Assembly (NCBI GenBank): GCA_023213315.1
Contig: JAKCPI010002423.1
Coordinates: 62,001-126,000 of the forward strand
Length of the DNA stretch: 64,000 bases
DNA from: Euborellia annulipes
Taxonomy: Eukaryota > Arthropoda > Insecta > Dermaptera > Anisolabididae
Direction of reading: 5' to 3'
The notes under the pieces: generated by a model
What the model was told of the DNA's origin: nothing
Databases searched by the model: none
Seen by the model: the letters and a program-made list of their open reading frames with translations, nothing else
Made by a program: the position numbers and the translations under genes
Shown here: piece by piece, positions 3,416-55,766 of the stretch
Numbering within the stretch: the stretch's first letter is position 1
Layout of the letters: every line of letters begins with the position of its first letter

Positions 3416-3842
3416 AAACATAATTTTTTTATTTATATTTAAAATATGGGAAACTTAAATTATGTAAGAGAAAGTTGTACGAACTATTTAATCGTTGCAT
3501 ATGTATAATTTAATAGTAATTATAAAGAAAGATAGGATATAATGTTTTCTTATCTATGTTTGTCACTTTTGAAGATCCAGAAACGACTTATTAAGAGCTT
3601 TTAAAAATGATCAACTAAGATAAGAAAACAGGCAAAAGCATATTTCATTAATATGATAAAAAACAATCCATCCGAGTTCACTTCAAAGATATTAGAATAA
3701 TAAAGATTTTAGCCTCTTCTTATTTGGAAATGAATATTATCTACAAGTGTATGAGAGTAAATATTAAAGCATCCCCATGCGTTTGGTCATGTGATTATTT
3801 CATTGTTTTTAGGTTTTGATAAAAGAAACGAAACATCTTTAT

Positions 3843-4085
3843 TAGATTTAATAGGAGAATTAAATTCAGGGATGATACACAAAGTTTTTTTGTTCTAATG
3901 ATTTATTTATTTAAAATTTAATTTATACATATTTCGACACATACTGATGTATGAAATTCACTTCCGGTGATGACACATATGGCGTCGAAATACGTATAAA
4001 GTGTTAATGTTAAATAAATAAATCATTGAAACAAAAATACCTTATGTATATCATACCTGAATTTAATTCTCCTATTAAATCATAA
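3843..4085. repeat. Palindromic element with hammerhead-like motif (AUACGUAU type)
   Basis: Inverted arms of about 110 bp meet near 3957. The right arm carries stem I CACTT (3959-3963) / AAGTG (3999-4003), a GAC/GTC stem II and GAAATACGTAT. The catalytic core reads CCGGTGAT instead of CTGATGAT, so this copy is probably inactive. The outer sequence matches the intact member at 24995-25240. Confidence 0.7.
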
Positions 4086-4233
4086 TGTTTCAACTAGAGC
4101 CAACGGTTACCAATTTAAGATTAATCTTTATTAGAATTCTCTTCTACGTTATCCACAAAAGTTTCGTAAAAGAATTTTTTTCTTTTTCAATAAATAACGT
4201 TTTGGGGTGCTTTTAATATTGACCTGTACTGTA

Positions 4234-5501: not shown

Positions 5502-7630
5502 CTAATCGAATGTAATTCTTTTAAAAAAGAAATTCTTCTCAATTATATTTAAAAATCGTTGTTTTTGTTTCGATTTGAATTGTTTATACCACTCCACGAT
5601 AGATGCTCGCCTATCAATTTTCTCCTCCCAACTCAAATGTTCCTCTCGTTTAAGAACTTCAACAATTTCATTCCATTGTTTAATCCAAATCACCGGTGCA
5701 TTATATTCCTTTAAAAGACGTAACGGAGATAGGCCATCCTTCGAACATTCTCCTGGTGTCAGCCTATCTTCCACCACGGGAACACTTCCTAAAAACAAAG
5801 AAACATAAGTCTACAATAGTATTGTAGGGAAAAAAATATTTTTTACATTTAATTCGTTTTTTTTTTTTAAATCAAAAATAGCAAAATTTTTATATATTTG
5901 GAGATTGATTTGATTTTATTTGCTCTGGGCATTAGTAAAGAGGTAGAAGTTTTGGTTGATTATAAGTTTACTTCATGTTCTAACAACAAAAATTTATACG
6001 AATTACATTGGCTACCAATTGACTTGAAAATACAAGTACGGTGTATAAATATATTCAGATGCCGATAAAAAATTTAAAAACTTATTTTTTCTATATTCGG
6101 ATACGACCCTACTAACTAGGAAGATTTTTTTAAATAATTATTATTTTAAGAGGGTAAAAATGAGAAATGCAGCTAAGATTATTTCTTTATTTGGTTAATT
6201 CACACAGCTGACGTTTCGGTTCCGTGTTTGAACCATCTTCAGAGCTGGCGAAAAGTAATTATGAAAGTGTCATAGTGGATTTTATACATTGTTGAAAAAT
6301 TCTTATATAATATAAAAATTTTATATAATATAAAATTTTTCAACAATGTATAAAATCCACTATGACACTTTCATAATGACTTTTCGCCAGCTCTGAAGAT
6401 GGTTCAAACACGGAACCGAAACGTCAGCTGTGTGAATTAACCAAATAAAGAAATAATCTTAGCTGCATTTCTCATTTTTACCCTCTTAATAATATAACAA
6501 CTCAGCTATAAATTGTTTACGCAACAATTAAATAATTATATTAGCCTATTACATTATTATTCAAAGTTTTTAATAATTTGGAACAATTATTTTTATTTAG
6601 ATATTTTCTATTTATTTTTTATCTTTAGATTTATTTTTTATATTGAATACAAAGGCAAAGAATTCAAAATATTTAATCGTATCAAGATTAAAGGTCCCAG
6701 GCAAAATCTATGAATTGGATACCAATCAAATAGTCTAAATGGCCTCAGATGCCGAAAAAGACCTTAAAAAAGATTGTTTTTACCTAGAGACATGGCTTCA
6801 TAGATACGATAGCATTCAGTATTGATCCCCACAGGACTTAAAGTCAAATCAGAGTCTAGGATAGTATTAATATATCTTTTCAAGGAAGCATTGGTCTCTT
6901 TAGGACTCCATTCTTTTCTTGAGTGAATAATACATTGTTCTGTTTTATTTAAAAAGTTCACAAGGTGTTCTCTAGATGAGTTTTTGTAAACAGTGCCTTG
7001 GAAATTACAAACATGATTCCTAGAGGAGATAAGATCAATTTGAGAACTAGGGATGTCAGGGAAACTTCGATATGTTGCCACACCAAGGGGCCATTGAAAT
7101 ACTTGTTGGTTGTCAACACGAGTCCAGTCGTAGACGACAAAGAGAACGTCAACTAATCCACCTCGTGAGCGCAGGTAGCTTTCAATCCACTGGTTGTTAC
7201 AACGTTCATCACCCAATATTAAAACAGCTGTACGTTTTAAATTGGGATACAAAGGAAGATAATCCAGCCATAATCGTGCTTGAGAAATTTTTTCTTGAGA
7301 TCGTCCATTGAGTACCAGGATTAGATATTGAACCATCGGAAAGGAATCCTGCACCATTTGTGAACCAGAACGATAAATAAATTCTATACGGGTAGTTTGC
7401 CATCGTCCAAAAATATTTCCATTCTCATTGGAAAGAATCTCCCCATTGATAATATGTGACCAAAGGTAATCAGCGATTGCCGCCTTCCCCCATATTTCGA
7501 CTACTTCACGAACTTTGTTGGGTTTAGTTCCGACTTTATTTGAATAGAAGAGATGATAGAAAGAATAAAATGTGATAAGAATATATACAAGGAGAAATAG
7601 AAGAAGAAGCGCTTTACATTGCGCTTTCAT
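5502..7630 (-). CDS. RXYLT1: RXYLT1 (TMEM5)-like ribitol xylosyltransferase, 2 exons
   Basis: The gene is read on the - strand: exon 1 is 7630-6784 and exon 2 is 5788-5502. The junction splits the Gly of the conserved GSVPVVED motif exactly (CTAG|GT...AG|GA). The 377-residue product matches RXYLT1/TMEM5, a Golgi type II membrane enzyme that adds xylose to ribitol-phosphate during matriglycan assembly on alpha-dystroglycan. Residues about 7-28 form a hydrophobic signal-anchor. Family motifs follow: WGKAAIADYLWSHI, LGDERCNNQW, QWPLGVATYRSFP, a Lys/Glu-rich stretch, and SPVGINTECYRIYEA just before the junction. The human protein is somewhat longer, with the difference at the N-terminus. Exon 2 ends in a basic tail like the vertebrate one. 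The single intron contains a hammerhead-bearing palindrome. The gene is convergent with RAMAC and divergent from TRIP12. Confidence 0.93.
6136..6495. repeat. Near-perfect palindrome with hammerhead motifs in both arms
   Basis: Arms of about 170 bp meet near 6318 inside the RXYLT1 intron. On + strand 6388-6430 the order is CAGCT, CTGAAGAT, GGTTC...GAACC, GAA, ACGT, C, AGCTG. This is a type I hammerhead layout with stem I, core, stem II, a four-base stem III and a GUC-type cleavage site. The mirror image at 6205-6247 has the same motif on the - strand. Downstream of each lies a shared tail containing AATAAAGAAATAATCTTAGC. Confidence 0.88.
6388..6430 (+). ncRNA. Hammerhead ribozyme-like motif, type I, short stem III
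   Basis: Stem I is CAGCT/AGCTG (6388-6392 with 6426-6430). The core CTGAAGA plus one extra T spans 6393-6400. Stem II is GGTTC/GAACC, then GAA at 6418-6420, stem III ACGT at 6421-6424 and cleavage-position C at 6425. All required core bases are present. The extra T after the core is a non-standard feature shared by every copy here. An identical - strand copy lies at 6205-6247. Confidence 0.78.
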
Positions 7631-9171
7631 TCTGACAAGTCAACTCATAATATTTGAGGTTATGTTTATGCTACTTGAAACAAAAAAAAATCTGTTTATT
7701 TATTAAGAATTTTAAATGTGCAATTATTAATAATTTTGTTAATTTAAATAAGAAATGATAATTAGTGATTTTGAAAGTGATTGTTTTATATTTGGCGGTT
7801 CGAACAGCTGGCAAATAAATTTTTGAAACAAGACATGTAAAGATGATCAATATAGTTCCTTTTAATGAACGATTTCACCGGCGCCACTTTTGATTTAAGA
7901 ATTTTTTCTTTTGAACTTATATTTATAAAGACTGATGAGGATTTTTAATTTATAATAATTTGACATACAACCTTTGTTTTGGATAAATGCGGGCGACTGA
8001 AATTCTTGCAGTATTTTACTTCTCATGATAAATTTTTTTTCATTTCGTTCTTCGCTCTTTTCAAAGACTAGTTCTTTTAAACGAGTTCATTCCATCTACA
8101 AACACGAGTGCAATGAGCAACACAAAAGCCAACCAGCACTGGCATTCATCGCTGCTTGTCACCACCTTCAGCCATTTCCATTTGGACTCCAGACTTTTCT
8201 TTTACAATCATATTTTAGTTAGCCAGCTTAGTAATCAGATTCTTTAATTTCATTAATTTAAGACTGATTAGTGTTTAATCGGTGCCTGTTCCAAAATTTA
8301 TTCGACCACGAAGGCTCTGGCTGCTGTTGGCTTCACCTTCGCCTCGGCGACCGAGCGATGAGTCGTCTCGTATTTGTTCCATTCTATCGTTTCAGGGGTA
8401 CGATCTCTCTTAGCCGTGATCAAGGTACTCTCAAGGTCCCATCCATTTTCCTTTAAAATTTATTTTTAACCAATTCTAGAATAGAATTTTTTGATTTATT
8501 AATTAATTTTAGTGCCAATTGAACTCAAAAGAGTCCTTGGCTTTTTGGATCGTCTCGCCAGGTCTAATCATGGTGGATACCAACGTTCTTTTGTTTATGT
8601 CGAAATCTTTCCTAATTCAACTCGCATTTATTTCATAACTTTTAAAAATATTTATTTAACTAGTATATTTTTAAATTTTATAAAAAAAAATTTCAATAAT
8701 CGATTATTAATTTAAAAAATACTAATCAATAATAAAAATAAATTCATTAAATATATAATCTTTGAAATTTTTTTTTTTTTTTTTGAAATTTTTGTTCTTA
8801 AAAATTATTTAATTTTATTTATATATATAAATTAAATTAAAAAATTTTCTTTTTATTTTATTAATCTAGTAATTTTTTTTGTTCATATCTTGGTAATATA
8901 AATTTCATTTGTCAAAGCATAATCAAATTCAATTATTCTTTGACAAATAAATGCTTTAATAAGTAATCGTTGGTTTTGATTACAATTTTTCATTCAATAA
9001 ACTAAAAATAAAAAAAATTTTTTTGTTTAAAATATCTATTAATAAATTTCAATAATGGATGACATGCAAGTGATAAAACAAATTGTAATGAATGCCAGGT
9101 TGGTTTTGTACAAAAGCACATGTCTCTTTTTCTCTTAATAATTTGGATGCATTTATTTATTTTTGCTACAG
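7631..9171. promoter_or_regulatory. Divergent RXYLT1/TRIP12 promoter interval and leader
   Basis: RXYLT1 starts at 7630 on the - strand and the first TRIP12 coding exon is preceded by an acceptor (TTTGCTACAG) ending at 9171, so this interval must contain both promoters and an untranslated TRIP12 first exon. Two GC-richer blocks, about 8060-8215 and 8290-8640, stand out from the AT-rich surroundings and could be leader exons. I saw no open frame matching a family and no clear TATA box. Confidence 0.5.

Positions 9172-9214: not shown

Positions 9215-55766
<46,552 letters not shown>

Follow-up and report, generated by a model that had tools for sequence, protein, structure and literature searches.

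What are the short, mirror-image repeats with hammerhead-like motifs that recur in the genome of the earwig Euborellia annulipes, and how were they inserted? The question arises from a stretch of 64,000 nucleotides (assembly GCA_023213315.1, contig JAKCPI010002423.1, positions 62,001 to 126,000 of the forward strand; hereafter the window, with coordinates counted from its first letter). An earlier note, made from the sequence alone, had described there at least eight palindromes of one design, each arm carrying a hammerhead ribozyme motif, and had proposed a possible new repeat class, namely a non-autonomous foldback family mobilised by the hammerhead. Our analysis leads elsewhere: we consider it probable (roughly 0.7) that the units are short, non-coding, non-autonomous parasites of Penelope-like elements (PLEs), comparable to short interspersed nuclear elements (SINEs), and that they insert through target-primed reverse transcription, with both strands of the target serving as primers.

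All eight palindromes were verified as inverted repeats, and a recognisable hammerhead motif was found in at least one arm of each. The design is thus shared, but the statement that each arm carries it did not hold: only three palindromes, 6136-6495, 24995-25240 and 52062-52512, have an intact motif in each arm (arm complementarity of 98, 100 and 97%, respectively). At 21337-21510 (element D), the motif is confined to one arm, although the 47-nt arms are 100% complementary; the single clear arm of 3843-4085 (B) has a mutated core; GAA is absent from the right arm of 51218-51520 (G) at 51488; the left arm of 36417-36880 (F) is decayed; and 1509-2029 (A) has a weak stem I. The arms are arranged head-to-head, and the dimers are therefore inverted rather than tandem, as the note had it. 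By blastn within the 64 kb, they form six unlinked groups (A, B with E, C, D, F, and G with H), and a ninth copy, decayed and single-armed, lies at about 31365-31475. The elements are delimited as follows, with the strand given where one applies:

1503 to 2034: element A, head-to-head pair with more diverged arms; motifs at 1619 (minus) and 1930 (plus), with weak stem I
3847 to 4123: element B, head-to-head pair, relative of E; decayed motif; right tail of 37 bp
3835 to 3846 and 4124 to 4135: target duplications of element B, ATCTTTATTAGA
6130 to 6141: left target-site duplication of element C, TTAAATAATTAT, a perfect 12-bp direct repeat with 6528-6539
6142 to 6527: element C, head-to-head pair of 386 bp; palindrome at 6142-6494, longer tail on the right arm (6495-6527)
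6205 to 6247, minus strand: left-arm hammerhead motif of element C, from the strict scan (stem I CAGCT/AGCTG, CTGAAGA, stem II GGTTC/GAACC, GAA, ACGT, C)
6388 to 6430, plus strand: right-arm hammerhead motif of element C, from the strict scan, identical to the left-arm motif
6528 to 6539: right target-site duplication of element C, direct repeat of 6130-6141
21316 to 21501: element D, head-to-head pair; motif in the right arm only, at about 21409-21448 (plus); left tail of 33 bp
21306 to 21315 and 21502 to 21511: target duplications of element D, TTTTGTATAA
24997 to 25285: element E, head-to-head pair; 118-nt arms 100% complementary; right tail of 46 bp
About 25064 to 25107 (minus) and 25127 to 25170 (plus): motifs of element E
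24985 to 24996 and 25286 to 25297: target duplications of element E, GTAATATTTCAA
31365 to 31475, minus strand: single-armed, decayed relative of family C and of locus L208; stem II, GAAACGTC and the tail are kept, CTGANGA is lost
36410 to 36887: element F, head-to-head pair; motif in the right arm (36795, plus), left arm decayed
51203 to 51499: element G, relative of H; left-arm motif (51325, minus), long tail to about 51203, right arm damaged
52067 to 52529: element H, head-to-head pair; motifs at about 52116-52158 (minus) and 52396-52438 (plus); right tail of 40 bp
52053 to 52066 and 52530 to 52543: target duplications of element H, AAAATATACTTTTG

Read outward from the centre, the motif consists of stem I, CTGANGA, an extra T, stem II, GAA, a tiny stem III (ACGT, ATAT, ATACGTAT or ACTGT), one unpaired base and stem I'. 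A strict scan recovered four window arms (6242 minus, 6393 plus, 52154 minus and 52400 plus), versus none in 30 order-3 Markov simulations, and a looser scan recovered 10 arms, versus none in 25 simulations of 40 kb; nine of these 10 were scored head-to-head and 51325 minus as single. Scanning without the extra base after CTGANGA gave no match in the window. The covariation reported in the note was confirmed: over seven loci, 52 of the 56 positions of stems I and II pair natively, against a mean of 32.4 with swapped partners, and the native arrangement is the sole one of 5040 partner permutations reaching 52. When the stem pieces were joined (eight rows with stem limits cut by eye, the B/E and G/H rows being relatives), 87.5% of the cells paired versus 53.9% shuffled and 29-40% slid, and 30 cells were changed on both sides versus 10.5 shuffled; both pairing tests leave out the left arm of A, whose stem I is poor. 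CTGANGA, stem II, GAA, an opening stem I and covariation, which together define a type I hammerhead, are accordingly all present. Rfam returned no hammerhead family among 36 matches up to E 10 in the window; its microRNA-like palindrome matches and other weak matches all fell below gathering scores and were rejected.

The extra T forms an ATG at stem II in the window loci, and the frame that it opens closes within 18 codons in the seven families read, so that it is not the start of a long open reading frame (ORF). The ORF of PAc, a PLE of the anole lizard, begins at hammerhead stem II (PMC11167929). Among 230 PLE protein N-termini, many of them incomplete, none starts with M and has RNV within 25 residues; the ORF start thus provides no link. 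The stem III sequences are mostly self-complementary, a property that would allow two motifs in a tandem RNA to pair; dimeric hammerheads are reviewed in PMC6155905. Element C itself is predicted to fold as a single long hairpin (-273.7 kcal/mol, z -41), so that the ribozyme should be masked in a read-through RNA.

A DNA pattern scan gave 34 matches in the viral_contigs set and at least 120 in the genome_contigs set, seemingly chance matches or phage hammerheads with a real stem III, and no relative was confirmed when viral_contigs was scanned for PLE proteins. Phage-like hammerheads in four viral contigs (L020, L026, L028 and L031) have the extra T before stem II and, by eye, a real stem III. 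Within the window, a further palindrome (17427-17609), lying between C and G tracts, has inward-facing hammerhead-like halves whose stem II differs by arm (GATGG/CCATC and GGTCG/CGACC); it could be a tail-to-tail relative or a coincidence.

The ends of the window elements are more informative as to how they were inserted. Perfect direct repeats of 10-14 bp flank five of the eight palindromes (B, C, D, E and H), whereas only 14 of 400 random pairs reach 10 bp, and 53 of the 60 duplicated bases are A or T. In these five, the repeat adjoins the palindrome on one side and lies 33-46 bp away on the other, the extra stretch being family sequence common to B and E, and to H and G. Counted from the ATG, the ends of the short arms lie between +82 and +100 (C, E and H; the right arm of D at +84) and those of the long arms between +124 and +148 (H, C and E; D, by addition, at +117). 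In the related B and E, the positions of the long ends agree to within 1 nt and those of the short ends to within about 3-7 nt.

This one-sided stretch of 33-46 bp is the ‘tail’ of PLEs. Indeed, a 31-bp extension, optional on one of two inverted pseudo-long terminal repeats (pLTRs), is described in excerpts of PMC3846280, where head-to-head is the commonest orientation, and a 30-40 bp tail bounded by two internal reverse-transcription start sites is described in PMC11167929. PLEs of the Penelope/Poseidon type (the inverted pLTR pairs of Adineta vaga, and Poseidon PAc of Anolis) have the same minimal hammerhead without a usable stem III (PMC6155905, in part). They resemble our units in the optional 30-40 bp tail on one inverted copy, the target duplications, the AT-rich targets, the head-to-head orientation and the two internal start sites (PMC11167929 and, in part, PMC3846280). 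All the terminal signals of PLEs, namely the minimal hammerhead, the optional tail and a variable, AT-rich target duplication, were found in the window. A new repeat class is therefore not supported: their tail, duplications, inverted orientation and motif position are known PLE features in these same two sources, and an ORF-bearing PLE of the host, described below, ends in a hammerhead and tail of the same layout.

The regularity of these ends was then measured in family C, for which the genome (903 Mb, 25,949 contigs) was searched with the dimer as query. Among 2103 first-look candidates, 40 were scored, the 80 matches corresponding to two per place, on both strands; the resulting set of 40 copies comprises the window copy and 39 fetched places. 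Four copies (L169, L174, L178 and L189) share a flank with another and are probably duplicates, which leaves 36 independent ones; the shared-flank groups (L165/L169/L174, L187/L189 and L164/L178) are either segmental duplicates or haplotypes left uncollapsed in the assembly. A head-to-head arrangement is seen in all 40, as the dimer query selects for it. Their arm ends are long/short in 31, short/short in five and never long/long, four having a truncated arm. For the independent copies the figures are 27, 5, 0 and 4, that is, long/short in 27 of the 32 classifiable (P = 6e-5 versus an expectation of one half). Scoring a second time, on 37 copies, gave 28 long/short, five short/short and one long/long among 34 classifiable (P = 1e-4); one copy, L163, is long/long with one query and long/short with another. 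Target duplications of at least 11 bp accompany 26 of the 36 independent copies (control: 5/180) and range from 9 to 16 bp. The hammerhead is intact in 43 of the 80 arms under the strict pattern and in 56 under the looser one.

The centre of the palindrome varies between family-C copies, bar the probable duplicates, with one arm often reaching a fixed 5' end and the other cut short. The pair must thus have been made anew at each insertion, and did not move as a unit. This bears directly on the foldback part of the earlier proposal, and on the idea that a foldback DNA transposon or miniature inverted-repeat transposable element (MITE) moves as a palindromic unit and holds a hammerhead by chance. 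Many near-perfect palindromic copies do exist, as such an element would produce, but a shared palindrome with symmetric ends is absent from family C: the centre differs by copy, the tail makes the ends asymmetric, and the duplications vary in length over the range given. For family C, this explanation is already contradicted, and we regard it as highly improbable overall.

How the second arm arises is a more delicate matter, since PLE machinery could also act with self-priming, the first strand or an antisense RNA folding back at its 5' end and being copied. This route, the main rival to our reading, is favoured for the Penelope of A. vaga in PMC3846280 (2013), and a truncated arm facing a full one fits a snap-back too. 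Seventeen independent pairs combine a full with a truncated arm and a long with a short tail: the truncated arm holds the short tail in 10 and the long tail in seven. In these seven, the truncated arm carries a tail that is absent from the full arm, and so cannot have been copied from it unless the full arm was later trimmed. Moreover, the short ends fall at a fixed place, not at random.

The two arms nevertheless share their source. At eight diagnostic sites taken from the region between the hammerhead and the short end, the 36 copies show 21 arm discordances versus 81.6 with shuffled partners (0 of 3000 permutations), and 40 copies at nine sites show 27 versus 94. A first test, on 21 copies (107 discordant versus 98 expected), had included misaligned AT-rich centre columns and was replaced. 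Private variants occur in one arm in 71 cases and in both in four, so that arm-to-arm conversion is rare and is not the cause of the shared alleles. The two arms therefore derive from a single source RNA, or else from RNAs that share a locus or a period. Arms that nearly always have the same source are equally what self-priming predicts, and its antisense-RNA version is harder to exclude; given the tails and the fixed short ends, we judge self-priming quite unlikely.

The window holds no visible reverse transcriptase, as the note had stated: tblastn with 230 PLE proteins found none there at E<=0.05 (positive control 1e-90), and its units are accordingly probably non-autonomous. A sample of 200 kb was taken at arbitrary places on contigs chosen for carrying a family-C copy. 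Relatives with a reverse transcriptase do occur in this genome, although in other families than C, E and H: L202 and L203 carry PLE ORF fragments (tblastn 1e-36 and 5.6e-24, respectively). In L203, the ORF (189 aa, with a KVYIGQTGR stretch) ends at 1482 and is followed about 470 nt further on, at 1009, by a hammerhead (CTGATGATGGCA...TGCCGAAACGTC); the end of the insertion, at +129, coincides with that of C, and an 18-bp target duplication is present. In L202, PLE reverse transcriptase and C-terminal fragments form a broken ORF, and a hammerhead at 2679 (stem II GAAG/CTTC, with A replacing the extra T) lies about 400-450 nt past the coding stretch; this ORF copy is itself part of a head-to-head palindrome, each arm measuring about 1.08 kb. 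Positions 1-2300 of L202, together with L222, contain PLE reverse transcriptase ORF copies placed head-to-head, with arms 96.5% alike and, by eye, the same non-PLE stretch in both. The layouts of L203 and L202 indicate that hammerhead and tail mark the PLE 3' end in the host genome too. Five letters, GCTGC, situated 65-78 nt into the unit, are common to L203, L208, L220, F, C and the arm at 31456, a likeness that is weak alone.

Could the units then be mere 5'-truncated fragments of autonomous PLEs, solo inverted pLTR pairs that form no separate family? Inverted pLTRs and truncation are usual in PLEs (PMC8969392, in part), L203 resembles such a truncated ORF copy, and our genome-wide view is restricted to family C. 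On the other side, the 5' end of family C is discrete and the family is without an ORF: of 72 arms, 20 begin at a single fixed point (TTCATTTATGTACC...; position <=5), two at 6-20 and the rest further in, and the 24 nt upstream of this point have nothing in common, by eye, beyond TTC. The 40 copies contain no PLE homology, the one weak match (E 0.005) lying in the flank of L192, and the frames, as said, close early. These observations make simple truncation unlikely. Since neither the window nor the family-C units show PLE homology, we class them as PLE-dependent rather than as PLEs.

On the preferred reading, insertion by target-primed reverse transcription on both strands, the sequence of events could be as follows. 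The RNA unit would begin at a defined 5' end (observed in family C alone), carry a minimal hammerhead and stop, in its 3' region, at one of two fixed reverse-transcription start sites, the proximal one about 80-100 nt and the distal one 117-148 nt after the motif ATG. A PLE reverse transcriptase with its GIY-YIG endonuclease, acting in trans, may make cuts spaced by about 12 nt in the two strands of an AT-rich target. Each cut end would prime its own RNA copy, from one source, usually with one distal and one proximal start, and the two cDNAs, often one full-length and one truncated, would meet 5' to 5' and be joined. The predicted outcome is a head-to-head pair with about 12 bp of target sequence duplicated around it. 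The anole PLE protein does cut and extend both strands in vitro, starting at two internal sites (PMC11167929). We infer mobilisation in trans, the cutting and priming of both strands, and any cleavage activity. Tails of unequal length point to a difference between the two sides of the enzyme, or of the RNA. A bolder form of this reading, tentative and somewhat short of even odds, is that the units are a class of PLE parasites, non-coding, high-copy hammerhead RNAs of about 245 nt, which enter as pairs because an asymmetric dimer of the PLE reverse transcriptase primes both strands simultaneously, one protomer distally and one proximally, on RNAs of the same source.

As for the hammerhead, it may process read-through or tandem RNA and is probably dispensable for insertion. 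Cleavage by the anole PLE hammerhead needs the PLE protein, and hammerhead mutants of this element still insert in vitro (PMC11167929). No arm out of the 80 of family C begins after the cut site, with a query that favoured long arms. Nothing that we saw supports mobilisation by the hammerhead itself, the last part of the earlier proposal.

Several observations weigh against priming on both target strands, or narrow its basis. The dimer state of family C was selected by the query, and unselected evidence for pairing is small: in the 200-kb sample, the looser scan, which missed the motifs of L202 and L203, found four motif loci, three of them head-to-head (L208, L210 and L220) and one single (L217). 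When the window families served as blastn queries, the sample also yielded a pair of family C at L207, a stretch resembling D at L204 and fragments resembling B or E at L205, L213, L214 and L217. One of five sample palindromes has a duplication of at least 9 bp (L208, 13 bp, with a left tail); the L204 palindrome tested for this was not the D-like one. In the window, F and G lack a flanking direct repeat of 8 bp and A has only a low-complexity candidate, while seven of the 36 family-C copies have no duplication of 9 bp and five are short/short. L203 has a poor stem I and is apparently a single-orientation insertion; the L202 and L203 ORFs do not exceed Pfam cut-offs, so that their PLE identity rests on tblastn; and for families C, E and H a parent with an ORF was not found. 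Some figures also count against a common source of the arms. Sites 39 and 53 (and 58 in the 40-copy test) show no concordance, the other six being strongly concordant; mean divergence is only slightly lower within a copy (0.038) than between copies (0.053); the own partner is the nearest arm for only nine of 42 arms; and the alleles might be shared simply if a single source was active in each period. Finally, the long/short rule is left unexplained by the anole protein, which showed no strand difference in start site in vitro (PMC11167929).

With regard to known systems, the units differ from PLEs in lacking an ORF, in the discrete 5' end of family C and in occurring as bare pairs. A PLE in the full sense has a telomerase-like reverse transcriptase ORF, usually with GIY-YIG, and nothing of this kind is found in the window units; they behave as PLE insertions do, and it is for want of the enzyme that they are not PLEs. 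Metazoan retrozymes are likewise short, non-coding type I hammerhead units, of about 170-400 nt, for which PLEs are named as a strong candidate to provide mobilisation (PMC7229834, in part). Retrozymes, however, repeat their units directly in tandem, carry canonical hammerheads and form circular RNAs, whereas inverted pairs with minimal hammerheads are found here.

SINEs offer the closest analogy in strategy, their non-coding RNA exploiting the 3' signal of another element, and twin priming in long interspersed nuclear elements yields inversions by second-strand priming. In contrast to both, the two outer ends are here the 3' ends of units, and inversion is usual in the sample. Inverted pLTRs, tails and PLE hammerheads are already published (PMC11167929 and, in part, PMC3846280, PMC8969392, PMC7229834 and PMC6155905). 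Bare non-coding pairs of PLE type, a long/short rule or a SINE-like PLE family were not found in the literature searched, most subscription papers being outside it; our own measurements supply the long/short rule and the evidence that the arms share a source.

Around the elements, the window contains recognisable host genes and other repeats:

6764 to 7639, minus strand: RXYLT1 exon (Pfam; 51% to Periplaneta and 55% to Cryptotermes proteins, top match 72%)
42230 to 42879: remnant of a Tc1-type transposase, its first part by Pfam
53180 to 53953: HECT-domain exons (Pfam)

Two further palindromes (30146-30307 and 47389-47601), apparently related as judged by eye from similar ends, are MITE-like and without a hammerhead.

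For PLEs, the later steps of insertion were left awaiting validation by the 2024 in vitro study (PMC11167929), and it is on these steps that the earwig units may be of use, the 40 family-C copies favouring copying from both target strands. If true, our reading would give PLEs a SINE-like parasite, and if that parasitism is real, each insertion would be the footprint of one complete PLE integration event. Should many of the 2103 first-look matches prove to be short, complete mirror-image insertions whose boundaries are intact, like the 40 scored, the question of how PLEs insert would become a matter of counting.

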